Below, in pieces: positions 1,741-20,201 of a stretch of DNA of 21,067 bases (its first letter is position 1; each line of letters starts with the position of its first letter). Source of the stretch: Candidatus Desantisbacteria bacterium CG1_02_49_89 (GTDB lineage: Bacteria; Desantisbacteria; UBA1551); contig MNUP01000070.1 of assembly GCA_001871075.1 (NCBI GenBank), positions 1 through 21,067 of the forward strand. Reading direction: 5' to 3'. The position numbers and the translations under genes were made by a program. The notes beneath the pieces are model-generated. The model was not told the DNA's origin and searched no databases. It saw only the letters and a program-made list of their open reading frames with translations.

Positions 1741-2544
1741 ATGAAAGTGAAAGAATTTGAGGAATACCTTGTAAAAAGGCGGAAGGAGTTCGCGAAGAAG
1801 TTCGGGCAGGAAATAAACGAGCTGGGGCAGGAAGAAGGGCTTAAAATAGGAAGCCCTGACGCGGAAGTCACCGGGATCCTGGTAACCTGGATGATGACAA
1901 AGGAAGCGATAGCCGAAGCCGCGAAACAAAAATGCAGCCTGATACTGTGCCACGAGACCCCGTGGTTCGGGGACAACTGGAATACTAAAAACCCTTCGAT
2001 ACCTTTGTGGCGGGTGAACAACGAGCGCAAAGACCTTGCTCTTGAGAACAGCCTGAACGTTATCCAGTGCCATTCAACCCTTGACGAGATACTTATAACA
2101 GACACGTTCGGCGAGTTCCTGGGCCTGCCAAAACCTTCCATCCAGGCGTGGCGGCTTATAAACATATACGATATACCGGCTCTGCCGCTTAAAAAACTCG
2201 CGGACCAGGTAAAGAAGAAAACCGGGCTGAAAACCATCAGGGTGACAGGCAACATGAACAGGAAGGTGAGCAAGGTCGGGCTTATTTACGGCGGGATAGG
2301 ATTGAGCATAAACCTTGGTTTCTGGGAAGGACAGCTGAAGTGGAACCCGGAGGTCCTGATAGCAGGGGAAATGGACGAATACGCTATGCGGTACGCTATA
2401 GACAACTATATCTGCGCGATAGAAACAACACATCCTGTAAGCGAGGAGCCGGGGCTTGAAAAGTTCTGCGAAGAGCTGAAGCAAGACCTGCCGGGAATGA
2501 AGGTGGCGTTCCACAGGGTGGGAATGTCCTGGAATTACGTGTAA
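1741..2544 (+). CDS. Nif3-like (DUF34) dinuclear metal centre protein
   Basis: A 267-residue protein matching the Nif3/YbgI family, which forms hexameric rings with a two-metal site; the physiological substrate is not firmly known for the family. Visible motifs: CHETPWFGD at 70-78, in the place of the usual HHP metal motif, with H71; CHSTLDE at 110-116, matching the H-[ST]-x-L-D segment with H111 and D115; and THPVSEEPGLE at 230-240, with H231 and E235 matching the closing H-x-x-[ST]-E ligands. The first motif has Cys-His-Glu where many members have His-His-Pro, so one metal site may differ. The stop codon lies inside a 12-base word (ACGTGTAAGGTG, 2537-2548) repeated exactly at 2611-2622, so the gene end borders repeat DNA. 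No functional link to the GH4 enzyme is evident. Confidence 0.82.
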   Translation: MKVKEFEEYLVKRRKEFAKKFGQEINELGQEEGLKIGSPDAEVTGILVTWMMTKEAIAEAAKQKCSLILCHETPWFGDNWNTKNPSIPLWRVNNERKDLALENSLNVIQCHSTLDEILITDTFGEFLGLPKPSIQAWRLINIYDIPALPLKKLADQVKKKTGLKTIRVTGNMNRKVSKVGLIYGGIGLSINLGFWEGQLKWNPEVLIAGEMDEYAMRYAIDNYICAIETTHPVSEEPGLEKFCEELKQDLPGMKVAFHRVGMSWNYV

Positions 2545-2548
2545 GGTG

Positions 2549-2600
2549 CCCGCCCGCCTCTACGGCGGGCGAGGTCTCGCCCCGAGGTTGATCGGGGCGG
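2549..2600. repeat. Double-hairpin element, copy 1
   Basis: Stem 1 is GCCCGCC/GGCGGGC (2552-2558 and 2564-2570). A GAGGTCTC junction follows, then stem 2 CGCCCCGA/TCGGGGCG (2578-2585 and 2592-2599). Copies with the same plan lie at 2742-2794, 3859-3910 and 3981-4035. Confidence 0.7.
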
Positions 2601-2602
2601 AT

Positions 2603-2627
2603 AACGTGTCACGTGTAAGGTGTAAGG
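2603..2627. repeat. Heptamer array of the ACGTGTA type
   Basis: About three and a half copies of a 7-base word (ACGTGTC, ACGTGTA, AGGTGTA, AGG). The word is closely related to the GTAACGT triplets inside the giant gene at 8344-8364 and 14002-14022. Confidence 0.7.
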
Positions 2628-2644
2628 GGAAGATATTACAAAAG

Positions 2645-2694
2645 AAATCCCCCTCAATCCCCCTTTATTAAAGGGGGAAACAGGGGGATTATTT
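2645..2694. repeat. Nested C5/G5 inverted repeat, copy 1
   Basis: Inner stem CCCCCTTT/AAAGGGGG (2659-2666 and 2670-2677, loop ATT) inside an outer stem AATCCCCCT/AGGGGGATT. ATTTTATT follows on the plus strand, so it could act as a terminator for the Nif3 gene. A second copy, interrupted by 30 bases, lies at 4037-4114. Confidence 0.65.
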
Positions 2695-2741
2695 TATTCG
2701 CATGCAGAATATTAAAAAATGTTATGTTTGCTGACAACTCA

Positions 2742-2794
2742 CCCACCCCGACTTTCTGTCGGGGCGAGGTCTCGCCCGCGCTGAAGACGGGCGG
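2742..2794. repeat. Double-hairpin element, copy 2
   Basis: CCCCGAC...GTCGGGG, then GCGAGGTCTCGC, then CCCG...CGGG. It has the same plan and the same GAGGTCTC junction as copy 1. TGACAACT words lie on both sides (2732-2739 and 2795-2810). Confidence 0.65.
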
Positions 2795-2810
2795 ACAACT
2801 GACAACTGAC
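2794..2810. repeat. Heptamer array of the GACAACT type
   Basis: GACAACT repeated twice, then GAC. The same word occurs just left of the adjacent double-hairpin element. Confidence 0.6.
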
Positions 2811-2852
2811 TATAGCAACCACGAATTAACACGAATTTGCACGGATTATTTA

Positions 2853-2880
2853 CATTCAGCATCTAGCATTCGGCATTCAG
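2853..2880. repeat. Heptamer array of the CATTCAG type, four units
   Basis: CATTCAG, CATCTAG, CATTCGG, CATTCAG: exactly four units of seven bases with a few substitutions. Confidence 0.75.
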
Positions 2881-2890
2881 CAGATTTTAC

Positions 2891-2911
2891 ACATGACTCA
2901 TGACACATGAC
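2891..2911. repeat. Heptamer array of the ACATGAC type, overlapping the arsM stop codon
   Basis: ACATGAC, TCATGAC, ACATGAC. The arsM stop (TGA, 2898-2900 on the minus strand) lies at the start of the second unit, so the last codons of arsM (SHVS) are built from the array. Confidence 0.75.
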
Positions 2912-3716
2912 TGCCTTTAACTGCGTAGACCTTGATGCTGAGGACGTTGCGGGCGGCGGCTGAAATATCTTTCCCGGAGATCTTTATAACCTTCATTATT
3001 GCCTGGGCAGTGGGATCATTCGCAAGGCAGTCGATCGGAAAAACAGATTCGTCTTTTATCTCTATCCTGCCAAACCCCGCTTTCTTTATCATCCCCAGGT
3101 ATTCCTCTTTCTTCACAGCTCCGGATATGCAGCCCACGTAAGCTGCAACCGAACCCATTATGGCTTTGGGCAGGTTTTTAAGCAGGACTATGTCCGAGAC
3201 CATCATCCTTCCACCCGGCTTAAGCACCCTGAACGCCTCTTTAAAAACCTTTCCCTTGTCAGGCGCGAGATTTATCACGCAGTTGGAAATTATGGCGTCG
3301 ACGGAGTCGTCCTCAACAGGCAGGTTCTCGATCTCCCCGAGCCTGAACTCGACGTTCTTGTAACCGCCTTTCTGCGCGTTCTTCCTGGCTTTTGCCACCA
3401 TTTCCGGGGTCATGTCGATCCCGATCACCCTGCCTTTGGTCCCGACCTTTTTCGCGGAAAGAAAACAGTCAAAACCCGCGCCTGCCCCAAGGTCCAGGAC
3501 GGTTTCCCCTTGTTTCAGGGACGCAAGCGCGACCGGGTTGCCGCAACCAAGCCCGAGGTTGGCGCCTTCAGGCACAGAGCCCATTTCCTTGTCAGAATAC
3601 CCTACGGTCTTGCTTATCTTTTCCGCGGTCCCGCCTCCGCAGCAGCCGCAGCTGCTTTTCTGCTTCGCTATCCTGCCGTAACCCTTTTTTACTATCTTTT
3701 TCACGTCTTGCTTCAT
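2898..3716 (-). CDS. arsM: Arsenite S-adenosylmethionine methyltransferase
   Basis: Probable cytoplasmic enzyme that transfers methyl groups from S-adenosylmethionine to As(III), giving methylated and volatile arsenicals. It has 272 residues, typical for bacterial ArsM. Visible: a Cys-rich start (CGCC, 23-26); the ArsM hallmark [20 protein letters not shown] (40-59); Rossmann methyltransferase motif [14 protein letters not shown] (73-85); acidic strand IGIDM (98-102); motif-IV region [11 protein letters not shown] (140-150); and post-I segment [12 protein letters not shown] (164-175). C146 and C196 are 50 residues apart, as are the paired As(III)-binding cysteines known in the family, and C58 in GLGCG is a likely third ligand. 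The start is fixed by AGGAGG at 3725-3730. No arsR, arsB or arsC lies beside it, so it stands alone. Its 3' end lies in a heptamer array. Confidence 0.92.
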
Positions 3717-4036: not shown

Positions 4037-4114
4037 AAATCCCCCTCAATCCTACTACGCCAAGGCTTCGAAGGATAAATCCCCCTTTGATAAAGGGGGA
4101 AGAAGGGGGATTTA
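4037..4114. repeat. C5/G5 inverted repeat, copy 2, with a 30-base nested insert
   Basis: It matches the copy at 2645-2694 on both sides (AAATCCCCCTCAAT and CCCCCTTT/AAAGGGGG at 4081-4099), but 4051-4080 is an extra segment. The insert is bounded by ATCCT (4049-4053) and AGGAT (4072-4076), an inverted pair, which suggests a small palindromic element placed inside a larger one. Confidence 0.6.
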
Positions 4115-4195: not shown

Positions 4196-7100
4196 CTACT
4201 TAACCCTCACCCGGAATCGTATTGCCTTTGTCTCATTGATTCCGAGGGAACCGACGCGCCAGCGCAGGCCTTTCACGTTGCTCGCCCCTGAAGCCGGCGA
4301 ACCCGCGATCCAGGTTAAAAATGCGGTGTCGGTTGTGTAAGCCCAGGTCTCAGAGACAGTTATAGAATCCATGTTTACAAAGTTTACAAGGTTACAAGTC
4401 GAAGTATCAAAGGACCTTGTATCTACGACAATGTTGTTAATGGCAGTTTCAGTTCCAATATTTTTAATGTATATCGTGTATTCAACAGTGTCAGACTGCC
4501 AGAACCTCATCGGCATCGAACCTGTCTCGCCGGAACGTATGTTCATCTGGACCTTTGAAGTCAGGACTGTTGGCTTTGTAACCGTTTCCTGCTGCGTATC
4601 CGTCCATGTCCAGGAATCGGTCCTTGTAACCGTGGTCACGGGGTTTCCTCCCGACTTATCCCTGTAATACACTGTTTTGGAACCGGAAGACAGGTAGACT
4701 ATGGACGTGTTAGCCCACGTGGTTCCAGAAACTGAGAACGAACCTTTGGCCGATGTTGTCAGCAGTTGAACCGTATCATTATAGAGAACCGCGGTGTTTC
4801 CGAACCCGTCTCCTGCTTTTATGAACACAGGCGCCGTGCTTACGCTTGTTATCGTGAACGGTATGGTATTCGCGAACCTGAGAAAGCGGATAGTAACTGT
4901 CTCGGTTTGCGTATCAGTGGCCAGTGGCCAGTGGTCAGCAGTCAGCACGGGAGAACCGACGGCAAAGTCGCGGTAGTAAAAAGAGCCCACTCCGCTTGAG
5001 AACGTGATCACGGTAGTATTAGCCCACGAAATATCTGACACTGAAAATGAACCGGAACTGGAATTTGTGGACAGGCTTACCGTATCATTGAAGATCTCAT
5101 CCGCTCCGCCAGAATTCCCTGCCGCGGCTGCCGTAACCTGCGGGGACGTATCCCCTGCCCTGATCCTGAAAGAAGGAGACACGAAATCCAATTTAGTTGC
5201 GGTGAACGTGAGTGTTGGGCTTCTGCGGAGCATCATATCATCAACCCAGCATGTCCCGGAAAAACCGCCGTCTGTCACAACACGCTGCACAACGCCTGTG
5301 TATGTTGTCGAGTTCCAGATAATAGACCTGTATTCCCAGGTTTGCAGGTCCGGAGTGCAGGTAAGGTTGGGGTCATCTGTAACGTCAGCTAAGTCTATGT
5401 AACAGCTGCCCGGGTTGTGCTGGGACCAGAACCAGGCGCTGTATAAGTAATTGGAATTCTGCTGGACCGGAACACTTGCCTGTGTGATGGAAGCGCTGGG
5501 GCCGCCTGTTTTGCACATAATTGAAAAACTGCCTGTATGGGTCCGGGCTGAGTCCCTGAACTGGTTTACTGCCATGTTCCAGCCTGAAGCAGAAATCCCT
5601 GCGCCCAACTCAAACGACGGATTATTTGTTGCCATCATCACGTTTTCGTATATTGTGTTCCCGCCGCAGGCCGCGCAAACCGTGTCCTGGCCCGCGTACC
5701 CTGAATAGATAGTAAAAGTGCACATACCATTAGAACCAGTTGGTTGGTTGGTTGGTTGGATAGTAACTGAGTTGCCTCTTGAGGCGGCAAGCGTCACCGT
5801 TTTGCCGGCAACCGGGAATCCGTAAGTATCCGCGATAAAAACAACAGCGGTGGCCACGGACGTTCCGTTGTCAGCAGGGACCTGATGGGGATTGAAAGTT
5901 ATGTATGATGCGTTCGCGTTCGCTCCCTGCGCGACCACTGTTTCGATCTGCGTGTCCCCGGTAAACGACGCGCGGTACGCGGTTATTATGTAGCTGCCTG
6001 TATTCGGGTTTTTGTAATAAACCGTAACCTCTCCGCTTTGCAAAGTCACGGAGGTCGTGTTCACCCAGTTAAACCTGTCCACGGAGAAATACCCGGTCCC
6101 TGAGTTCTGGAGACCGAAGGTGTTGTTGTTTGTCACGTCCTTGTTACCCACGCCGTCCTGCGCCTGGATGGTTATTTCAGGAGTAGGATTGTTCACCGTA
6201 GTAGTGCGCGCCGGAGTGGTTATTTTCAGCCTGTTCGCGGTAAAATATATATTCGCCCTGCCGGTATAGCTCGCGCTGATCTCGTCCGCGCTCAGCGCGC
6301 GGTTATAAAGCCTTACTTCATCAAGCGTTCCCTGCATCTGCCAGCCGCCTATGAAAAAGTGCTCCGCGGGCGCGGTGTCAATTACAAAAGATGCCTGGAC
6401 GCTTGTGGCTCTCAGAGTGTTGTCTATGTAGGTCCTGCCGTAATTCCCGTCATAGGTTGCCACGATATGATGCCATGCCCTGTCAGCCACGCCTTCCACC
6501 TGCATTGTGAGATAATTGGAACCGCCCTTCGGGTTTATCACGACGTAGACCGCGCTGCCGCCTTGCCGTAAAGCCCAGGGAGCGTCATCATACGGGTACC
6601 TTTTACCCGCGACCATCATCCATCCCTTGGACCAGGCGGGATCAGGAACAAGGTTCGCCCACACCTCTATGGTGAGCGCGCCCGGGATCCGCAGGCTTGA
6701 ACCGTTGCCGCAGTCAGCGTAATCGCCGGTCCCGCTCAGCTGCATGGCTGAGCCGAAAGCGGCGTCCGGAAAGGAAACCCACGCGGGGCTGCCGACAAGG
6801 CTGCCGTTATTGCCGTTGCCTGAAAGGTCGCTGGCATTGGAGTCAAGGTGCCAGATGCCCACAGCCCCGTATTTGTCCGTGCCCCGCCCTATTGTTTTCC
6901 CCCCGCAGAACGCGGTAATGGTATCCAGCCCTACGTAGGAGGAAAAGACCGTGAAAGTGCATTGCCCGCTTGCGCTGGTTGTCTGGGGGTTGACAGTCCC
7001 GTTAACGCTGTCCCTGATAGTGTCCGAATTGCCCCTTGTGGTCTGAAGCGTCACTAATTTGCCGGATAGCGGTATCCCGAAATAATTCTCATTCACGGTA

Positions 7101-10100
7101 ACCACCACCGTGCACCTGGACGAATTATCCGCCGGGACCAGGTATGGATAGAACGTAATGTATGAAGCAGTTTCCCCTGCCACAGCCGCGGTTATGGTCT
7201 CGGTTTGTGTATCTGCGATAAGCGATAAGCGATAAGCGGTCAGTCTGGGATTGCTTATGTTGCCGTCCCTGTAGTAAAAGATCCCGGCGCCTGAGCTCAG
7301 GTAAATGTTGGTGGTATCAGACCAGGGGCTGATATTGACCGAAAATTTCCCCTGGGCTGAGGAAGACAGGAGCGTGACCGTGTTATTGAAAAGTAATACC
7401 TTATTCCCGGTATTATCCTGCGCCTCAACCGCGATCGAAGGCGAAGGGGCGTACTGGCTGGAAGAGAACGGAGGGGTCGTTATTTTTAATTTCGCGGCGC
7501 TCGCGCTGAAATTGACCGCGTCTATCTTTATGTCGTCAAAATGGACGTGAGAATCTTCCGTCTTCAGGCGGAACTTTGAATACACCGCGGGGCTGCCCGC
7601 GGGCCTTGCCCACTCCGCGATAAAACTATTGTTCAGCCACCATCTTACTTTTGACTGGGTGACATCTATCCTGACCTCATACCATTTGTTGTAGGTTATT
7701 GCCTCGCCCAGCTGCTGGGTAACGGAATATACCGTCCCTCCTGTTTTCTGCCTGATCTCAAAATAGTTCGGGCCGAAGGTGGAGTCGTTGTTGCGCACTG
7801 ACCATTCGAGGAAGTTGCTGGCGCTGCTGTAAAAGATCAGGTGCGCCGCGGTGGCTCCGCCGTACCCGTTCGCCATCTTTAACCGGACATAGAGCGTCCC
7901 GCCTGAGAATTCCAGCAAGGTCTCCGAGATACCAGTGCCATCCATGTCCCCGCTGTATTCATTGTTTTCCACCTGCCAGGTCCCTGCCAGCGCGGCCCAG
8001 CCTGAGGCGCCTCCGGTAAAATTCGCAATAAGGGTGTCGCCGATGGTCTTTGTGTCGCAGACCGCCTTTACAGCCGCGTCCCCCGCGGAAACCGAAGAGA
8101 TAGTGAATGTCGCCTGCCCGTTGGAGTCCGTGATCTGCTGGACTGCCTGGATAGTGTCTGTATTTCCCCTGTTCGTGTAAAGCGACACGTTCTTCCCTGA
8201 CAGCGCGGCGCTGACATCGCTCTTCACGCTTACCGTGACAGTGCACTTTGCCCCTGTTGAAACCACCGGAGGATTGAGGACAAGGTAAGAAAGGGTGCTG
8301 CTTGCGACCGCGGCCGTGATGGTTTCTGTTTGAGTGTCAGCGAGTAACGTGTAACGTGTAACGGTTAAAACAGGGCTGCCGACCGTCAGGTCCTTGTAGA
8401 AGAAAACTCCCGCGCCTGAGCTGAACCGGATGACGGTCGTGTCAGACCAGGGATCATCGTTCAGAGAGAATTTCCCGTTCACTGAAGAGGAATATAGTAC
8501 CGCGGTGTTGTTGAAAAGCAGGTCCTTGTTCCCGCCGCTGTCCTGCGCCTCCACTGTGACCTGGGACGAAGGCTTGAACTGATTCACGGAAAACGGAGGT
8601 GTTGTGATCTTCAGCCTTGTGCCGGCCGGGCTGAAATTTACCGCGCCTATTTTCAGGTCATCATAATGTGTGTGCGAAGAACCTGCTTCCAGCTGCAGTT
8701 TTGAATACACGGCCGCGGAGCCTCCGACAGGACGCGCCCATTCCGCTATAAACCTGTTGTTCAGCCACCACCTGACTTTTTCCTGCGTAACCTCTATCCT
8801 GACCTCATACCACTTATCATACAGGATCTCTTCCCCGGCAGGCTGGATAGACACATAAGGAATTCCGCCTGCGACCTGCTTGATCATATACTGGTCCGGG
8901 ATCCACGTGGAATCACTATTATATATAGCCCACTCAAAGAAATTATTCGGGTCTTTGTAGAAGATCATATGGGAAGACGTGATGCCGCCGTAACCGTTCA
9001 TCATTTTTAGCCGGATATAAACAGTTCCGCCCGGGAACGCAAACGGCGTCTCTGCTACGCCGTCCGCGCCTGCGTCGCCGCTGTATTCATTCGACTCGAT
9101 CAGCCAGGTCCCGCTCTTCGCTGCCCAGTTCAAAGAACTGCTGAAATAATCAAGCAGCGTGTTTGAAATTGTGGCTGAATCGCAGGCGGCCTTTATTGCC
9201 GCGTCCCCCGCGTATATTGAGGAAACCGTGAAGGTTGCCTGCCCGTTCACATCAGTCAGCTGGCTTGCCGGCTGGACAGGATCAGAATTGCCGCGGCTTG
9301 AATAAAGAGTGACTGTCCTGCCTGTAAGTATTCCGCCGGTGTCGCTTTTCACGCTGACCGTAACCGTGCATTTTGAAGTCCCGCCAGCGGAAACTACAGG
9401 CGGGCTCAGGACAAAATATGAAGGGTTCCCGGTTATCGTTATTGTCTGCGTGTCCGCGATAAGCGACAAACGATAAGCGGTTATCACGGGGCTGCCAGGG
9501 TTGCTGTCTTTGTAATAGAAAGTTCCCTGGCCTGAAGAAAGATAAATATTCGTCGTGTCCTGCCATGAAACGCCGTTTATTGAGAACCTTCCTGTTGCTG
9601 AAGAGGATAAAAGCGTAATACTCTCATTGAAAATCACGTCTATGCCACCTGAATTTCCCCTTGCCTCCACCGAAACCGGCAGGGAGGCGGTATTCGCCGG
9701 GATCGCCTGCGCAAACGAGGTTATTTTCAGTCTCGTAGAAATGAAGCTCATTGTAGGTATCCGTTCAAGCCGGACCGCGTCAAACCAGGCTGTCCCGTCA
9801 GGGCTGCCATCCGTGACGCAGCGCAAAATCGCCGTGGTTTCGCTCCCGCTGTACCATGTTCCCTGCAGAAGCTCCCAGGCACTTTTCCCCTGCGTCGAAT
9901 ACAGCGCGCAGTCCGAGCCTGGCGAGGGGCGGTCATTCATGTCAAAATACGCCTGCCCGGAGGATGAAAATGAATTAAAGATCCTGCCGGAGAGCTTGTA
10001 GGAAGAGCCGGGGATTATTTTGGCGACAGAGATCCGCGTAGACGTGTCCGAACCAATAAAGGTTGATCTCAAAGAATAATTACCGGAGTAGGACCTGTCG

Positions 10101-13100
10101 GAAGAACGTATATGGTTCAAGCCTTCGGCCCAGCCTGAAGCGTCGTTGCCTGTCCCGGTTTCGAAGGATGGGTTCGCGACGATGTTCTCCAGGATGGCGT
10201 ATACCCCGTTGTAAACAGCGCTTATCATTTCATTCCCGGCGTAATACGAGGAGATCGTGAAGGTTGCCTGGCCGTTGGCGTCGCTCACAGCGGATCCCGG
10301 GTTTACCGTTCTCAGGATGGGATTTTCCAGGACCAGGCTCAGGGTCTCGCCGGAAACAGGAAAGCCGGTATTGCTCCTGATCTCTGCCATGACAGTTGTT
10401 GTCGAAGCCCCGTTCGCAGCAAGCACCGGAGTATTTACCTTAATATATGAACAGAAGTAATTTGGCCCCTGGGTGTCCAGAACGGTCACGTTCTTTGCAA
10501 ACGCGCCACCGAACCACGCAACGCCTTCTTCGAGCATCCTCCAGTCAGTCAGGTATACGCCCGGCGTTTCAGGAGCTGTCATCTTTACTGTAAATGCCTT
10601 GGTCTCATTCCTCCATATTATATCGTCCTTTGAAAGGAACTGCCTGTTGAATGTGAACGGGTCAGCATCCCCGACCGCGCCCAGCTTATACGCCTCCGTG
10701 TCCGTCCATTCAAGATTCCCGTTGTTCAAAACCGTGACCTGTGCAAAATACTGGCAGCCCGCGTGCATAGTGTCGGGTATCGTATTATTTAAAAACTGGG
10801 CGTCCCTTGTTTCCGGAAGGTTAAAGAACTCCGAGTCAAGAAGCCCTTTCTGAAGGTACCTTTCCTTATTATGTTTCAGGCGCAGCAGGGTGTGGTCATA
10901 CCTTCCGCTCAGCCAGTCGTATAATACCTGCCTGGAATCCAGGAACGGATAGATGTTTTCGGACAGCCACAGGTTTTCAAAAGCTGATTTCATCCCCGGG
11001 ACCGGGGCTTTCAGGTCGTTGGTAATAATGGTATTGATCGAATTAAAAACGCCGTCCGCGAAAGAAGTATCGTCCGCGTAGTCGCACGCGGTCGCGTAAA
11101 CCGATCTTATCTGTTCCGCGTCCTGGATCCGCTCTGCCAGGTACCGCACCCTGTCTGACGCGTTGATAATGGTGTCAAGGCTGTCCTGGTTGAAACGGGT
11201 TGAAGGGCGGTAACTGTTGAAGGTTGCCAAAGCCGGATCAGCCAGGGCCAGCATCGCGCTCGCCTTGCTTGCGGGGCTTGGTATGTCCCTGCTGTAGTTC
11301 CCCCAGAAAGGGTCGTCCCAGAACAGCCACCAGTTCCAGGAAGCATTCTGCCCTGCCTGGCCATAGGTGGAAAGGTCATGTATCACGTAATCGGTCTCGC
11401 TCATCTGCCGTATCGCATTAGATAGGTCGTCCGATATGGAGCCGAAGAACTGGTACGAGAACCTGCGGCCGAAATAGTTCTCGCTCTCATTGTATGTCTT
11501 CGCAATGTCATCCAGGGACCAGGCGCACTCAGCGCCGAAGATCCTCCCGTAGTAACCGACGCCGTGCATATGGTCCCTCTCGTCCAGCCAGTCCGTGTTT
11601 ATCATCCCGTCCACATTCTGTTTCGTCATGCCGTACTTCGTGAGGGACTTGATGTTCTTGTTGCCGCGCCTGAAATTGGGGAATATGCGCAGCCACGCGC
11701 TTATGCCGGGCATCATCCACTGCCTTCGACCCGAGTTGGCTATAAGGTCCACGTTGGGGTACGATGTGCGGTCCTCAAGCGAATCCGAACAGTTATATTC
11801 CCAGTTCATTATTATCGTGTCCAGGGGCAGGGTCGGGGAGTCGGTCAGGATCTGGGGGTGCGCGATTATCGCGTCCATACACAGGATCACTGTTTCATTG
11901 TAAACGCCTTTTAGGGTATCGTATAATCTATTGACGTGCTGTATGAATATGCCGTCCTTGCCTATCTGGTCAGCCAGTTCCTTGGACTGGCCCGCGCCCA
12001 TGTCGTAGGCCTCGTCGCATCCTATGAAAAAGAACAAAGACTGGTTGAAAGCCGGGCAAAGCTCGCCGAAAAGGCTATCCAGCAAAGTGTATGAGCCGGC
12101 GTTGGCTATGGCGAATGACCAGGGCGACGCCGGCACTTCCGCGTACTGGTTATACGCGGGCAGGGACAGCAGGTTCGCCTGGTGGCCCAGCGATTCGAAC
12201 AGCGGGTAAAATTCAACATGCCGCTGTTTGGCGTAGTACGAGATATCCTGGACCTCTGCCGCGGTGAGCGGCCCCCAGCCTACCCCGATATCCGGATGGT
12301 TCGCGAAATAGAACGTCACCTCTATATACGGCTCGAAACAGTTCATCTTGTAATAACTGAAAATGTCCATCATCTGCTTCAGGTAATCCACCGTGGGCCT
12401 TTGCCCGCGGGATATGTCCTCGGACATGCCCCTGTACCTGACTATGGGAAAATCCCTTATCTTGGCGGCTGTAACCGTCTTGTTCTGCCCGCTCTTGTCA
12501 AGAAGCTGCCGCAATGTTACCAGGCCGTAGAAAAGCCCTGTGGAATGCCTTGCGGAAATTATAACGAAATTCGCGTCTTCAACTATTTCAAGGATGTAAC
12601 CTTCATCTCCTATACCCGGGTCAGCTTCAATGCCTTTCTGCTTGCATATCTGGTCGAATAGCCCATCCTGGGAAGGGATGCCGGCAAGTATAGAGTTGGC
12701 AAGCGCGCCTGTGTCAAAACCCGAAGTGACGGGCACAGTAACGCCGAAATAGGACTGGATATCGTCCCTTAAAAGATCCGCGGCGAGAATGTCGTCCGCT
12801 GAAGCTGAGGAACTGAGCACTATTTTCGTGTTCGCGTCTATAATGAATCCTCTTCCCTCGAACGGGCAGTACCTTGCTTCCTTAGGCTCGGGTATAACGT
12901 AGCCGGTGGACAGGATCCTGATATTATCCCAGTCTGTCTGGCCTGCTCCTGCTGAAGGCTCGCAATCCCCGAGCAGAAATCCGGTAAGTGTGGTCGTGTC
13001 CTTCCAGACATAGCCGCTGTCCCACACCAGCGCTCCTGTGGAGGAATCGTAAACAAGCATCTGAAAACTTCCGGTGTTTATCAGCGCGTCCACATCGTAC

Positions 13101-16100
13101 CAGGTCCCTGCTGATAGCGCAGGCCCTGATACCCTCTGCGCCCATGCCCCGCTCTGCTCGGTCCACAGAGAACAGGGGCCGGAATTCAGTATGAAAGCAA
13201 AGTCCCAGGTGCGCGCCCCTGCCAGGCGCGACTCGAGCATCTGGCTGTCCTGGCCGATCGTTACCGGCTTGAAGCTGTACCGCAGCCTTATGCCGTTCGG
13301 CGGGACAAAATAATCTGACTTGGTCTGGACCCCGTCGTGGTTCCAGGAGCCGCTGGCGTAAGTGTGGAACTGGCCCCCGCTTATGGACGCGCTGCCTGTT
13401 AAGCTCCATACGCCCGCGTCATCTTCATTCGGGCCGAACTCCCTCTGGAAAGACCAGACCCTCACGTCATCCCACCAGGTCTCAGCATCCCCGCGGTTCG
13501 GCTCAGCATCACCCAGTAAAAATCCGATCCCGCTTGTCGGCTCAATCGGGTATTCTGATGGGTTCCAGAAAGTATCTCCTGTATCCCTGTTCTTAACAAG
13601 GACCTTGAAACCCGCGCGTTTTATTGTTGCCTTCACGTAATACCAGGTGCCAAGCGTTATTGTGCCCGGGCTTGTCGCGCGCAGGACCCAGTTCGGGTCT
13701 CCCACGTCCTTCGTATATACCTGGGCATACTGGCTGTTAATGACCACGAAAAGGAAACGGTGATATTCCGCTCCGCCGATCCTGGACTCGAACATCTGGC
13801 TGTCCGCACCTGCCTTTATCGCCTTAAAACAGTATTCGACTTCAAGCCCGTCCCTGGGAACTAAGTAGTCCCGTTTTGTGCGGAACCCGTCCCTGTTCCA
13901 GGAGCCGCTGGCTGACGTGTGGATCGCGCCGCTTTCGATCGAGACGTTATTTATCCATACCCAGTCGGACATCTGAATGTTCTCGGTCTGGGTGTCAGCG
14001 AGTAACGTGTAACGTGTAACGGTTAAGACAGGGCTGCCTACGCTGTTATCACGGTAATAAAAGGAACCGAGGCCGTTCTTGAGGGTGATCACAGTGGTGT
14101 TCACCCAGTTCGTGTTGGAAACAGAGAAGGTGCCGGAACCTGAGCTGGTTGACAGCGTGACCGTGTTGTTAAAATTAATGTCCAGGTCTCCGGTATTATC
14201 CTGCGCCTCCACCGTTATCAGGGGCGAAATACAGTTCGGCGGAATGCTGAAAGAGGGAGTGGTAATTTTCAGCCTGGCGGCGATCACGGGATAAAAATAG
14301 AAGTTCGCCCTTTTATCAAAGCTCATCCTTATTTCAGTGTCGCTCAAAGCACGGTTGTAGATCCTGACCTCGTCTATGTAACCGTCGAAATACCTGTTCG
14401 CGCCGTTATCGTCCCTGCCGATCTGGACCGGCCCGCCGACATCCGGATTTATGGTCCCCTGTATGGAAAACGTGTTCATAAGAACCCCGTCTTCATATAT
14501 CCTGATGGCGCTGCCGTCATAGGAACCGGCGTAATGGTGCCACTGGGTCAGGCTTTTCGCGGAACTATATTGCGCCGCCACCCACTCCGAACCGTAAACG
14601 CAGACATAAAAATAAAGGTCTTTTGTCCCCTGCCACGGATGCAGTATGTACGCGTCCCTTTTACTGACAAGCATCCCGTACGAGTTCCAGTTGGGCGTGT
14701 TGCTTTTCGCCCACAGTTCGATGGTAACCGCTGTTGTATTATTCAGGCTCTGGGAATACGAAACTTCCGCGTAATCGCCTGTCCCGTTGAATTTCAAAGC
14801 TGAACCTGATGAAGCATTATCAGGGGCTGATGCCCAGGCAGGCCCGTAAAGCGCGCATATGTTCCCGTTTCCCGAAACATCCAGAGTATCCGTGTCAAAA
14901 TTCCATATCCCGGCCGCGCCGTATTTATTCACGCCGCGCGTTATCGTCCTCCCGGAGCAGACCGCGAAGATCGTGTCATACCCTGCGAACGCAGAGGTTA
15001 TCGTGAAAGTGCATTTGCCCCGGATATCCGTTGTCTGCGTGTTGCCTGCGGTGCTCCCAACGCTGTCCCTTATCGTGTCAGAATTTCCCCTGGTGGTTTG
15101 TAGCGTCACCAATTTATTGGTGATAGGGAATCCATAGGTATCATTGATTGTAACAACAGCTGTGCACCTGGCAAAACCGTTCGCCGCGACCCGGTAAGGG
15201 ATAAAGGTAATATATGAAGCGGTCTCATTCACTCCCTGCGCAGCTATTATTTCTGTCTGTGTGTCCGCGATAAGCGATGTGCGATACGCGGTTATCACGA
15301 AAACGCCGGTATTCGGGTTCCTGTAGTAAAAGACCGCGCCGCCTGCGGACATCGTGATGACGGTTGTGTTTATCCAGTTTATCCTGTCAACCGAAAAAAC
15401 CCCGGAGTTTAAGGAAGAAAAAAGCGCGGCCGTGCCGTTGAAAGTAGCGTCTTTCACGCCGAACTCGTCCTGCATCTCTATTATCACCCCTGGCGAGGGA
15501 TTGCCCTGCGTGACCGCGAACGGAGGCGTCATGATCCTCAGCGCCGGGCGCACGAAGCTTATGGCGGGTACCCTCTGCAGTTTTACGTCGTCGAACCAGG
15601 CGGTCCCCCTTGGGCTCCCGTCAGTGACACAGCGCACCTGCACTGAAGTGTAAGCGGCGCTTGGCCAGCTGCCTTCCAGGTATTCCCACCTGTTGGCGCC
15701 ATTCGTCGACACGAGGTTGGGCTCTCCGGCTGCATCCCCCAGGTCATAGTAAGCCTGGCCCTGGGTGAGCGAGTTGTATATCCATCCTGACAACCTGTAA
15801 ACGGAGTTCCGCGCTACCAAGATGGTGCCCGAATAACTCGAGGTCGCTGTTTCAGCGAAAGTGGACCTTAACGAGTAAAGCCCGGTGTGAAGCCTGTCAG
15901 CGTAACGGTTGTGGTTCGTGCCTTCGGCCCAGTCAGCCGCGTTGTACCCGCTGCCGTCCTCATAGGAAAAATTGGGCGCTATGTTAAGCGTAATCGTCGC
16001 GCCAAGGCATATCACTACCACTGAATCGTCCCCGGTGTAAGGAGAGCGTATCAGCCCTTCGCATTGCCCGTACGCGTCTGTCAGCCCCGGCTGCACCACG

Positions 16101-19100
16101 GTGTCATAAAGGGAACCGCGCGAGGTCACGATCGTCACCTGTGCCCCCTCAATGGGTACGCCGTATCCCCCTTTCACATATATGGCCACGGTGCAGTTAT
16201 TCAACCCGTCAGCAGGCACAAGGGACGTTGAAACGGTAAAATAGGAAAGGGTTTCGGAGCGGGTTTGGACAGGGATAAGCATCACTGTCTCCACCTTGCT
16301 GTCAGGAGCGTCAACAATGTTCAGGTCTATCCTTCCTGACCCGTTTCCCACAGGGGTATTCAGCTGGACCTTTGCGAGCTTCCTTGTCCCGTGCACCCAC
16401 GCGCTGTAATCGCAGGGAGCCGCGCTGACGGTGAAAGTCACGTTATTCGTGCCGGTATTGACGCGGGTGATGAACCAGTACCAGTGTTCCAGGCGGGAGG
16501 ATTCGCCTGTGGAAGCCCAGCCTGTGTCTGAATTGAGGACGCTGATGGCGCGCGGCACCCCATTGACGTTTATTGCGCAGGCCGGGGTGTTAAATGCCAC
16601 GGAGGAAGAGCATAGTATTATGAATTCGGGCTTTGAATAAGTTGTCGGGACATTGATCTGGGCTATGCCTGAAAAGCCGTTCGCCCTCGAGTCAGAATAG
16701 CTGGTAACGGTTATCGTGGCTGAATTGCCCGGGAAATAAACCAGCGTGTCCTGGTTATTCGCCGGCGTTATGGGGTCTATGACCTTGACCGCCCTGGTGC
16801 ATCCCGGCTCAGAGTAAAGGTTATACGTTGCGGCGGTCGCTGTGTCATACCGGCATCCCATGATCACCGGACGGACAAGCTCGGTCTCAGGGAAAACCTC
16901 AAAAACAAGCGCTTCGTAAGCCCCTATCCTGAAAACAATGCTATCCCCGTAAAGGAACATATTGTTGTAAATATACCTGTACAGGTAGGTTATTTTGATA
17001 AAATGGTTCCCTGTCATCTGCCTGAACCCTATGGAAGAATTGAACGATATACTGATATTTTTTTCCTCAACGAACGGGTTGCGCACGAAAATGATCCCCC
17101 GCCCGCCTGCAAAATGGGAATATCCGTAAATCCACCTGTCCTCAGGGTCACCGAGTATCAGCCTTGTCTTGAAAAGGATGTCCTGGTTCTGCCTCTGCCA
17201 TTTCATAAGCTGGGCAAGGAACCCCCACCCGGGCGAGTCCAGGTAATTGTTGTTCACGTAAAGGGAGTTCAGGAGCGAGCCGCGGCACACAACCGTAACC
17301 GCGTCGTTCTGCCATGGCTCAGAGGTCTGGACATCCACTCCCAGCACTTCCTGGCCTGAAGGCGACAGCGACGGCCACATTTTGCACCCATCCCTGTACC
17401 CCGCGCATCTGCGCGTCGTATAGGCATCCTTATAATTAAGGGCGGGCACTATCCCGTACGGGTAGTCGTCCACATGGTTGCCGATTATGGAATCGGAATA
17501 CTGCAGCCACCAGGGGCTTTTGTTCCAGGTAGCGGTAGGCTCTGTCCAGAAATCAGGCTTATAATAGTGTATGGCGCGCAGGTTCAGCACGTACCTGTCA
17601 ATGTTCGCTTCCACACCGTAATCCCCGGAAAAATGGCCGTGTGTTGAGTTGTCGTGAGCGAAAGGCCAGAACCCGTCGAACTTGTTCAGGGACATATTGT
17701 AGGTGTTTATGTGGCTGAGGTCTGTCTTTATGAATTCAGCTCCATATTTCGGGCCTGCCAGGCACAGCATTTTCATCCAGCCCGTGCTGAACGCTTCGTA
17801 TCCCTGGGCCTCAGCCCAGTCATTGTCCAGCGCGAAGGGATAACAGGAGGAGGGTGACATCCACAGGCCCAGCCTGGTGTTCATCGCGTCAGCTTTTGTT
17901 TTCAGCCTTGAAAAACCCAGCGGGAACTTGCCGGTATTGATCTTCCAGATGGAGAATTTATCCGACCAGCCCGCGTCCACAAGAAAGGAATCAAAACTCG
18001 CGCCGTAGGGGTCAAAGAGCTTGGCCTTGAAAACGTCCATCAGGTCAAGGCATTCAGATTCGCTGAAATCAAACGGAAGCGTCCACCAGGTGCAGTAGCT
18101 GATATGGCAGTGAGGGGTAGTGTCCGGGCGGTTCTCGTCTATGTAATCTATGAAGGCGTTCTGCGCGTCCCCTATCGCCGAAACCCCGATCACGGCTTTC
18201 TTGGTCTGCGTGAAACCCTTCGGCATCACTCTTCCGGGGAAGTGTTTCAGCACTATAACGCTTCCCGAATAATTATTATACCCGGCTATGTATTCCAGGC
18301 CCAGGAACAGGTTGCCGCAGTAAATGGGGTCGCCGAAACCTCCGGCGGTTAGCGGCCCGCCTGATATCGTGAAGGTCTCGACCTGCGCGTCCATCAGCCA
18401 GGCTGTGTCAGCGCCTATTTCAACGGTCAGACCGAATTCCTTATTGGACGAAAAAACAGAATTCTCTCCGGTCAGCTTGTTCTTTACCGAAGTTGTCCTG
18501 ACCTTTCCGCCCGAGAAATCCACGGTCCTTTCAAGATAATTATTGCCCAGGACTATGTCAGAGGAATTCTGCGTCACGTATACGCCGCTGTTCGGAAGGA
18601 AGGTGTCGTAAACAAGTCTTGCGTCCAGCCAGTCAGCGTGGTCAGAAGCAATGCCGTCACCCGCGTCCGTGACTTTCAGCTTCAGCCATTTTTTCCCCGC
18701 GATAGAAACGTCAACAGTATCCGCGGCAGCCGCGCTGTCCATCACCGAGCTTGTGTAAAGAGTGTCCCCGTCAGCCACAACGTAGAACCTGACAGTGCCG
18801 TTCGGCACCTCGCTGTCCTTCCCAACCAAGCACCGGAACCTTTTGAAGGAAACCTTCAGGCTCGCGAGGTCAAATATGATCTCGGAATTCGCGTGCGTGC
18901 CAAGCCCGCGGGTGAAAGTCTCGCCTTTCACCGCGAGCGTGTTGCCTTCAACGGACCTGCTGATGCCCAGCGAGCCCCAGTCCTGCTGGGAGTGTACCGG
19001 CTCAACCTCATCCAGGTACATAAAATCCGGGGCAGGTGTTTCTCCGCCGTTCTTCAGGGAAACGGATTTATAGGTGTAGAATTTCCCTGAACCCAGTTCG

Positions 19101-20201
19101 TAGCACAGTTTCGCCCGCATTGCCGGAGAATCGCTTTTTAGAAGGAACTCCACCTGCCTGCCGCCGTCCGAAAGCGGGCGGATCGTGTAGGTATTGTACA
19201 GTAGGTTGTCGTTTGTAAGGGTATATCTGGGCAGGGACACGCCGTAATAGGTCTTGAAAGCAATGTCGTTTGCCGGCTGCGGAGAGTCCATACTGAACGC
19301 CATCCCCTGCGGATAAGGATTTACGGTCGCGCCGTAGGTTATGTACCTGTTGCCGTAATCCCCGCCCGGGGAATCCACCTCAAAGTAATAGGTATCCGAC
19401 GGGTTAACCGGCACCAGGTTGAACGCGAACGAATACCAACCCTTGCTGCCAATGGCTGAATAAGGAAGGGTTGCTGTGGCAAGCGCGGCCCCTTTTGAGG
19501 GCGGGGGGTCGGTGTATAATATGACATTAAGCGGGTCCTGGGGAGAGCCGAGTTTTTCAATCACTATGTCTATGCGGCTTACGTTTGTGACCGCAGGTCC
19601 TGTGATAAAACTCTGGCCCCCGTAGCTGTGGAAGTCCACTGTCGTGAACGCGGCGTCGTTCCCGGCAAGCGGATTGCGCATCTGAAAATGTATGCCGCCG
19701 GGATAGGGATTTGAAGTTGACCCGTATTCAAGATACTTGTTGCTCGCGTCGCCTCCAGCGCATTTCCATTCCATGTAATACGGCGGCGTATCTGTCAGGT
19801 TTAAAGCAGGCGAGAAGGAAAACGTATACCAGGCGTTGCCGCTGATCTCCGAAGGAGCAAGGGTGTCAGAACCTAAAAGGACGCCCGGGGTTGGCGGGGT
19901 GTCAGGATACACGTAAAGGACAATGCTTTCCGAAGGGCTGCCGATCTTTTCCAAATGCAGCCTGACTTCCTTCATCGTTGTGCCGACGGGCGTGAAGGAC
20001 TGCCCCCCCATACGATGTATTGTTCCCGTATATGGCGTCTAAGGCGGTCGCGAAATTCTCCTGGGACTGGTCAAACTGCCGTATGGCATGCAGGGCGGTG
20101 GTATCCCCTGTCTGGGTCTGGTCAGGGGAATCAACAGTGCCTGCCAAAGCAGCGCCGGTCGTTAAAAAAACCAAAATTAGGGACAAACATCTTTTTTTCA
20201 T
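4196..20201 (-). CDS. Giant secreted multidomain glycan-degrading protein (GH36-like and GH20), frame broken near the N-terminus
   Basis: One continuous frame of 5270 codons runs from 20008 to 4196. The ATG at 20011 cannot be the true start: it lies inside a conserved YGGQSF motif that recurs at full length about 128 residues later (SYGGQSF). In the next frame, 20201 to 20010 encodes a signal peptide (MKKRCLSLILVFLTTGAALA) and joins as ...NTSY-GGQSFTP if one G is removed from the seven-G run at 20003-20009. The restored protein has about 5334 residues. Domain order: signal peptide; two QSFTP sandwiches; NPCBM; GH36-like barrel; two triads; two concanavalin-like domains; GH20b plus GH20; NBR1-like Ig; five triads; one more repeat; DUF11-like tail. 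There is no LPXTG, dockerin or C-terminal membrane segment, so release or an unknown anchor is likely. A sigma70-type promoter lies just upstream. The likely role is extracellular breakdown of a GalNAc/GlcNAc-bearing polymer. Whether the break is real or an assembly error is open. Confidence 0.92.
4199..4580 (-). other. C-terminal DUF11-like domain of the giant protein
   Basis: Residues about 5208-5334. It begins after QETVTK and contains WQSDTVEYTIYIKNIGTETA, a typical DUF11/'conserved repeat' opening, and ends INETKAIRFRVRVK. Such domains are common at the ends of long surface proteins. No sorting motif follows. Confidence 0.6.
4915..4948. repeat. In-frame heptamer array, CAGTGGC type
   Basis: CAGTGGC, CAGTGGC, CAGTGGT, CAGCAGT, CAGCAC. 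In the giant protein it encodes the stretch LTADHWPLATD of the seventh 110-residue repeat. Confidence 0.7.
5739..5760. repeat. Tetranucleotide array (GTTG)x5 inside the coding region
   Basis: Five GTTG units encode IQPTNQPT in the last Big_1 domain of the giant protein. One unit gained or lost would shift the frame of the last 1.5 kb of the gene. Confidence 0.8.
7215..7239. repeat. In-frame octamer array (GCGATAAG)x3
   Basis: Three perfect GCGATAAG units, then CGG. It encodes TAYRLSLIAD just before DTQTET of the fifth repeat in the giant protein. Confidence 0.8.
8344..8364. repeat. In-frame heptamer array (GTAACGT)x3
   Basis: GTAACGT, GTAACGT, GTAACGG. It encodes TVTRYTLL before ADTQTET of the fourth repeat. 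The same array occurs at 14002-14022. Confidence 0.85.
9456..9480. repeat. In-frame octamer array, GCGATAAG type with substitutions
   Basis: GCGATAAG, CGACAAAC, GATAAGCGG. It encodes TAYRLSLIAD of the third repeat, the same peptide as the perfect array at 7215-7239. Confidence 0.7.
10460..13985 (-). other. Concanavalin-like pair, GH20 hexosaminidase and NBR1-like Ig domain of the giant protein
   Basis: Two similar sandwich domains (about 13985-13440 and 13440-12905; shared SGSWN.DG..TK.DY and GFLLGD.EP) precede the GH20 part. The GH20b-type domain (residues about 2433-2583) ends with GYILEI...VIISARHSTGLFYG and LRQLL. The GH20 barrel opens with IRDFPIVRYRGMSEDISRG, matching the family's D.P...RG...D.SR start, and carries the catalytic pair D2729-E2730 in FIGCDEAYDMG (codons at 12011-12016), where Asp assists the substrate acetamide and Glu is the acid. 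A helical stretch of about 150 residues follows, then an NBR1-like Ig domain (about 10790-10475) with MHAGCQYFAQVTVLNNGNLE and PGVYLTDWRM. Known GH20 activity is release of terminal GlcNAc or GalNAc, or lacto-N-biose; which one applies here is unknown. Confidence 0.8.
14002..14022. repeat. In-frame heptamer array (GTAACGT)x3, second coding copy
   Basis: Identical in its 21 bases to the array at 8344-8364, 5.6 kb away. It encodes TVTRYTLL before ADTQTE of the second repeat. Confidence 0.85.
15267..15291. repeat. In-frame octamer array, degenerate GCGATAAG type
   Basis: GCGATAAG, CGATGTGC, GATACGCGG. It encodes TAYRTSLIAD of the first repeat. Confidence 0.55.
16890..19040 (-). other. NPCBM domain and clan GH-D-like (GH36-like) catalytic region of the giant protein
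   Basis: NPCBM (residues about 388-530) shows the family core GLGTHANSEIIFDL and a closing DHADWLDARLVYD. A beta-sandwich then leads into a barrel (to residue about 1104) with FLVDAGWSDKFSIW, FPLGFSRLK, LGLWMSPSS and EFIKTDLSH. These match the 'D.GW', 'LWM.P' and 'K.D' strands of GH27/GH36 melibiases, where the Asp after Lys is the nucleophile: D827 here (codon 17720-17722). I cannot identify the acid/base with confidence. The expected substrate class is an alpha-galactoside or alpha-N-acetylgalactosaminide. A divergent clan member with another specificity is possible. Confidence 0.65.
19245..20012 (-). repeat. Tandem pair of QSFTP-type sandwich repeats at the N-terminus of the giant protein
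   Basis: Two units of about 128 residues. Each starts YGGQSF, continues with a hydrophobic strand ending EK[IL]GSP, a YxDxPP segment, a 'W/GWYSF.F' strand, and ends 'YGxTxNPYPxGxxFxM...NDxAF'. Such units occur in surface proteins that carry several adhesion modules. The match between unit 1 and unit 2 shows that the codons before 20011 belong to the same protein. Confidence 0.8.
20003..20009 (-). other. Seven-G run that breaks the giant reading frame
   Basis: On the coding strand TAT GGG GGG G CAG TCC. With six G the frame reads Y-G-G-Q-S-F from the signal-peptide side; with seven it shifts and stops at 19902. It is either a sequencing or assembly error, or a true slippage site able to switch the protein off. 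Confidence 0.85.
20010..20201 (-). other. N-terminal segment with signal peptide of the giant protein
   Basis: 64 codons from the ATG at 20201. MKKR is followed by a hydrophobic core (LSLILVFLTTGAA) and an ALA-G site at 18-21, a standard type I signal peptide. There is no lipobox. The rest, rich in Gln, Asp and Thr, leads into the first QSFTP repeat. Its ribosome site is weak (AAGAGA about 12 bases before the ATG). Confidence 0.8.

Follow-up and report, generated by a model that had tools for sequence, protein, structure and literature searches.

It has long been asked why heptanucleotide repeats dominate among the microsatellites of bacteria. In LSSR-rich genomes no repeat class is more common, and slippage by 7 nt has been proposed for the LSSRs (Mrazek et al. 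2007, summarised in PMC4679880); the TAACTGA heptamers of Beggiatoaceae overlap stop codons and lie at protein ends (MacGregor 2015, PMC4679880). These two systems and the cyanobacterial STRR resemble the repeats described here: all are tandem 7-nt units, mostly intergenic, present in two to several copies, sometimes overlapping stops and patchily distributed across phyla. REP/BIME and REPIN elements with TnpA_REP (RAYT) (PMC8266576, PMC3116915) are alike in being high-copy palindromes with two hairpins per unit, and in REPtrons (PMC8266576) Y1 genes are flanked by palindrome arrays. Rickettsia palindromic elements (RPEs), which are ~150-bp palindromes of ten families (reviewed in PMC10969869), lie in frame in unrelated metabolic genes and add a peptide to the product.

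The genome studied here differs from the LSSR, STRR and TAACTGA cases in using at least 50 words, in having arrays interrupted by cassettes and in carrying insertions centrally within essential enzymes; TAACTGA repeats lie mainly at the protein periphery, and related heptamers are rare in that genome (PMC4679880). The RPEs, by their description, differ from the simple heptamer arrays of many words found here, with or without cassettes. As far as our literature searches show, many words together with nested cassettes inside essential enzymes are a new combination.

The window, the whole stretch of DNA analyzed (21,067 nt), is one contig of Candidatus Desantisbacteria bacterium CG1_02_49_89, a 2.48-Mb draft genome of 150 contigs that is 93.5% complete and 1.8% contaminated. 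The nearest relative among the genomes compared is another Desantisbacteria metagenome-assembled genome (MAG) of the same order, Candidatus Desantisbacteria bacterium CG1_02_38_46 (the sister; 252 kb sampled), in keeping with the view of the initial annotation that the context is not cyanobacterial; the LeuRS of the nearest-relative genome is 100% identical to that of CG1_02_38_46. The key rates for the period-7 excess come from an unselected 445-kb sample of the own genome. Repeat coverage and ORF calls are heuristic, use simple ORF rules and cover 776 kb of the 2.48 Mb, partly chosen for hits.

Positions 2537 through 2911 are a mosaic of heptamer arrays, two ~52-nt cassettes, a CCCCCT hairpin and a ~95-bp composite block, set between two convergent genes:

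1741-2544, plus strand: DUF34/NIF3 family gene; stop codon TAA at 2542-2544 within the first array (ACGTGTA-A)
2537-2549, plus strand: left half of the ACGTGTA/AGGTG heptamer array; the word matches 2603-2627 across the hairpin cassette
2550-2600: double-hairpin cassette B, copy 1; core GGGCGAGGTCTCGCCC at 2567-2582; fold z = -4.76
2601-2630, plus strand: right half of the ACGTGTA/AGGTGTA array
2646-2691: CCCCCT hairpin AATCCCCCTCAATCCCCCTTTATTAAAGGGGGAAACAGGGGGATT, dispersed in the own genome; terminator-like on the minus strand
2733-2739, plus strand: single GACAACT unit left of cassette copy 2
2740-2793: double-hairpin cassette B, copy 2; core at 2762-2777; nested within the GACAACT array; fold z = -3.2
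2794-2810, plus strand: GACAACT tandem array
2817-2848, plus strand: period-10 array CACGAATT; left part of the composite block 2817-2912
2853-2882, plus strand: CATTCAG heptamer array of four diverged units; middle of the composite block
2891-2912, plus strand: ACATGAC/TCATGAC heptamer array; right part of the composite block; holds the methyltransferase stop codon
2898-3716, minus strand: class I methyltransferase gene, arsM-like via Pfam Methyltransf_31; stop codon at 2898-2900 within the last array

Direct reading and TRF confirmed the four different heptamer words that the initial annotation had listed. ACGTGTA lies at 2537-2543 and 2611-2617, 74 apart, with the variants AACGTGT(C) and AGGTGTA at 2603-2624; GACAACT lies at 2733-2739, 2794-2800 and 2801-2807; CATTCAG/CATCTAG/CATTCGG/CATTCAG fills 2853-2880, and ACATGAC/TCATGAC/ACATGAC fills 2891-2911. 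The same annotation had correctly placed the arsM stop inside the ACATGAC array and the Nif3 stop inside a word repeated 74 bases away; it lacked the additional period-10 array (CACGAATTAA, about 2817-2848) and overlooked the two similar ~52-nt GC-rich double hairpins that separate the ACGTGTA copies and the GACAACT copies. Each cassette interrupts one array, leaving the ACGTGTA halves on either side of copy 1 and the GACAACT units on either side of copy 2, and ACGTGTA therefore recurs 74 bases away. Identity at lag 7 within 2537-2911 amounts to 130 matches (expected 91 ± 8), a value reached by 0 of 2000 dinucleotide shuffles; lags 6 and 8 do not depart from the same shuffles. An orthologue of the arsM-like methyltransferase was looked for in the sister and was not found. 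The CCCCCT...AAAGGGGG hairpin (2646-2691) has close copies in at least 5 of 40 other genomes, mostly distant relatives, and is the one element of this region to recur in several unrelated genomes among those 40.

The preference for a period of seven extends across the genome. In the 445-kb sample, intergenic sequence has an identity of 0.3025 at lag 7, compared with a background of ~0.266, and further peaks lie at 14 and 21. When arrays are defined as exact tandem repeats with a run of at least 10, the same sample holds 157-169 arrays of period 7 and 52-60 of period 8 per Mb, with few at neighboring lengths. Five comparison genomes have 0-22 period-7 arrays per Mb, and in 1.26 Mb drawn from 80 named loci of other bacteria plus a few archaea the mean is 16 per Mb; the density here is roughly seven or more times that of the comparison genomes, with dozens of words within one genome. 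In the sampled sequence period 7 is over-represented whatever the word, and the excess belongs to no single word family, since the arrays use at least 50 canonical heptamer words. As in LSSR and STRR, tandem units of 7 nt outnumber those of other lengths. The TAACTGA pattern of one word directly upstream of starts contrasts with this diversity and with the position of the repeats, into which stops fall more often than starts (80 vs. 49 of 293 ORFs).

A change of word under a fixed period, as proposed in the initial annotation, can be seen directly in a giant surface-protein ORF elsewhere in the window:

4196-20011, minus strand: giant adhesin-like ORF, 5271 aa, with Big_1, Invasin_D3, Laminin_G_3, NPCBM and GH20 domains
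4880-4957, minus strand: loop coded by CCACTGG heptamers LTADHWPLATDTQTE
7178-7255, minus strand: paralogous loop coded by TTATCGC heptamers LTAYRLSLIADTQTE
8303-8380, minus strand: paralogous loop coded by ACACGTT heptamers LTVTRYTLLADTQTE
13961-14038, minus strand: paralogous loop coded by ACACGTT heptamers

The paralogous units share ..YYRD..SPVLT-xxxxxxx-ADTQTE, and the variable part is coded by one of the three words. Its length is constant, at roughly the 21 nt (seven residues) that three 7-nt units would give, so that three words occupy one slot.

Words are also shared between loci. The word of 94 of 121 array sites is present at another locus (null mean 17, maximum 31), and 32 of 54 coding-sequence arrays use a word of the intergenic arrays (null 1.6). 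Parts of the 2537-2911 block have 62 BLAST matches in the own genome. The composite block 2817-2912 consists of the period-10 array, four CATTCAG-like units, GATTTTAC and CATGAC units; this order is kept at several other loci, where the individual heptamers vary. Altogether, dispersed repeats make up 46% of 100 kb of intergenic and 1.8% of 676 kb of coding sequence. Because period 7 is enriched for many words, yet words recur across loci, a length rule and word copying are both present, although some of the shared words could stem from sequence preference instead of copying. For this region the initial annotation had favored a single copying process over a single mobile sequence: the period-7 process with changing words stands, whereas the exclusion of mobile sequence fails on the BLAST matches, the ordered composite block, the fixed-length cassettes and the sharing of words above chance, which together amount to dispersed families. 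The region calls for a period-7 process together with sequence copying or mobility. Broad sharing of a word across phyla was considered as well and is unsupported; GACAACTGACAACTGA was found in 2 of 191 other genomes and the reversed word in 1 of 191.

Repeats lie in frame inside housekeeping genes, namely those for LeuRS, HisF, a MiaB-like protein, RibD, a LeuC-like aconitase, fumarase and PyrD, and 38 repeat stretches fall well within ORFs in the own-genome sample. The in-gene units measure 20-180 nt and are often plain arrays. Relative to homologues of solved structure, HisF has an insert of 63 residues, the LeuC-like aconitase one of about 40 to 60, fumarase one of ~16 and PyrD one of ~14; peptides encoded by repeats thus add as many as about 60 residues to essential enzymes. 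Comparison with orthologues in the sister, for four genes of which three were chosen for carrying repeats, shows that the sister lacks a 27-nt AGTGTCC array and a second insert of ~30 nt (a hairpin nested in the AGTGTCC word) in LeuRS, a ~183-nt mosaic in HisF, a 45-nt GTCGTGC array in the MiaB-like gene and a AGTTTACA array in RibD. No seed is visible at the array sites in the sister's LeuRS, HisF and MiaB-like genes. Five of the six own insertions of at least 6 residues in 55 orthologue pairs are repeat sequence, in a set that included LeuRS, HisF and the MiaB-like gene on purpose and whose unbiased part is small. Neither conserved termini nor target duplication was found for the pure in-gene arrays. 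As with the RPEs, the inserts are in frame in unrelated metabolic genes and add a peptide. They can be placed against the sister lineage and read in conserved proteins with an inferable ancestral sequence; it is therefore directly testable where heptamer arrays originate, how large their step is, what they target and how they spread, and the genome lends itself to work on the emergence and movement of such repeats.

Taken with the word sharing and the ordered composite blocks, in-gene arrays at sites with no visible seed in the sister require copying between loci. We consider it probable that 2537-2911 is a mosaic of dispersed repeats in which copying in 7-nt steps makes and rewrites arrays, ectopic copying spreads them and hairpin cassettes insert into them; on the best reading, the repeats have expanded in this Desantisbacteria lineage. 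Slippage-like copying that favors 7-nt steps, as the period suggests, would make, maintain and slowly rewrite the arrays (whose units are sometimes 8 or 10 nt long), and such a step would preserve the period as words turn over. Arrays would then be copied to new sites, singly or together with neighboring modules, for which ectopic copying may be the route, and cassettes of fixed length (~52 nt for the double-hairpin type, ~26 nt for the single-hairpin type) would enter arrays without target duplication. Insertions would persist in spacers, at gene ends, where they may supply stops, and inside genes if the frame stays open.

A groundwater Nitrospinota MAG (JACQEW010000332.1) has an intact LeuRS gene with CGAATCC, CAGAAGA and CAGAAGC arrays, two of which occupy the same loops as sites 2 and 3 of the Desantisbacteria LeuRS. 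Since these are other heptamer words in two of the same loops, a dedicated or strongly biased copying activity with a 7-nt step might write, swap and spread words across bacterial genomes, in frame in essential enzymes too, replacing the word but keeping slot and period, and operate independently in unrelated phyla; we regard this wider proposal as doubtful. Further heptamer arrays lie just downstream of the LeuRS gene in JACQEW010000332.1.

Local replication slippage alone, with each array grown in place from a chance 7-nt duplication (7-nt polymerase contact length), would account for a strong length preference with harmonics across many words and fits the prevalence of heptanucleotides in LSSR-rich genomes summarised in PMC4679880. 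It is nevertheless unlikely as the whole explanation, given that words recur across loci far above chance, that coding arrays use intergenic words, that multi-module blocks keep their order and that the sister's genes have no visible seed at the array sites.

The hairpin cassettes bear on a second alternative, that a transposon system of the REP/REPIN or MITE type (Y1/HUH) mobilizes everything, with the arrays as passengers or internal parts. The cassette B core GGGCGAGGTCTCGCCC occurs at 79 exact sites spread over many contigs of the own genome and is absent from all 58 other genomes searched, the sister included. Cassette length is near-constant at ~52 nt with two hairpins, and the stems covary: across 36 sampled copies the inner stem positions vary in matched pairs, one pair being, for instance, C-G, A-T or T-A. 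A word of at least 7 nt is shared by both sides in 18 of 45 cassettes, compared with 4.7% (maximum 15.9%) upon random re-pairing of sides. The second cassette type, a single hairpin of ~26 nt, often follows ...GTC within arrays, and the array phase resumes behind it. Set against the terminal inverted repeats and target-site duplication of MITEs, the cassettes are hairpins, and at the best-defined sites there is no target duplication and the array phase is uninterrupted. Period-7 target-site duplication was considered as a source of the heptamers, as cassettes sit between identical words, and was rejected as a general source because the phase crosses the best-defined cassettes with no extra unit and most arrays are cassette-free.

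The own genome has 10 Y1_Tnp matches. Two of these genes (L092 and L093; G000:C23) are flanked by GTAACTC-type palindrome arrays, GTAACTCAAACCTTCAGGTTTGA / CTTCAGGGCTTTAGCCCTGAGTTAC, in a REPtron-like arrangement, and one flank starts with GTCGTGC heptamers. A GTAG-like tetranucleotide is seen by eye beside some palindromes (GTAGCCGCAGGC), and a conserved AATCCTTG palindrome is flanked outward by arrays in inverted orientation. By analogy with REP systems, the palindromes that flank the Y1 genes are probably moved by Y1 (HUH) enzymes, which may also act on the 52-nt cassette or the heptamer arrays. Unlike REP/REPIN units, the 52-nt cassettes are nested in tandem arrays and often lie within genes; at the window's 52-nt cassette neither a GTAG-type motif nor a Y1-gene association was found. 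The Y1 genes with their palindrome arrays, the fixed-length cassettes at GTC-type targets with no duplication and the arrays running outward from the AATCCTTG palindrome all speak for a transposon system. As the mover of everything it is nevertheless improbable: the pure arrays in the LeuRS, MiaB-like, RibD and LeuC-like genes have no hairpin or common ends, period 7 as such is left unexplained and, in the unrelated Nitrospinota MAG, different words fill the same loops of LeuRS.

The stable hairpins and the one terminator-like site would suit an intergenic block with a function for the two convergent genes, for instance as a bidirectional terminator or in stabilising mRNA. This is very unlikely; tandem and divergent gaps hold these repeats to at least the same extent, and the repeats also sit within genes, so a role tied to convergent genes is rejected and the convergent setting named in the initial annotation is incidental. 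A draft-genome artefact or contamination, conceivable in a MAG of 150 contigs, is extremely improbable given the completeness and low contamination of the assembly, the repeats within genes 71-80% identical to those of the Desantisbacteria relative, arrays of 20-40 nt (below read length) and cassette cores on many contigs.

Two further observations concern palindromes. The palindromic core CAAGGAATTTATT..AATAAATCCTTG has outward tails, in inverted orientation, of GTTGACAC octamers or TTCATAA heptamers, so that the same palindromic head carries different array words at different loci (L080, minus strand ~1386-1500, with a plus-strand counterpart near 4049; L072, L015, L049 and others). The sister's MiaB-like gene (L164) has palindromic inserts of its own, one encoding CAINRTITNTKNEQ.., and a similar palindrome encodes KCAINRTATKRKPEGLPYKI in an ORF of the own genome (L060:18962-19019).
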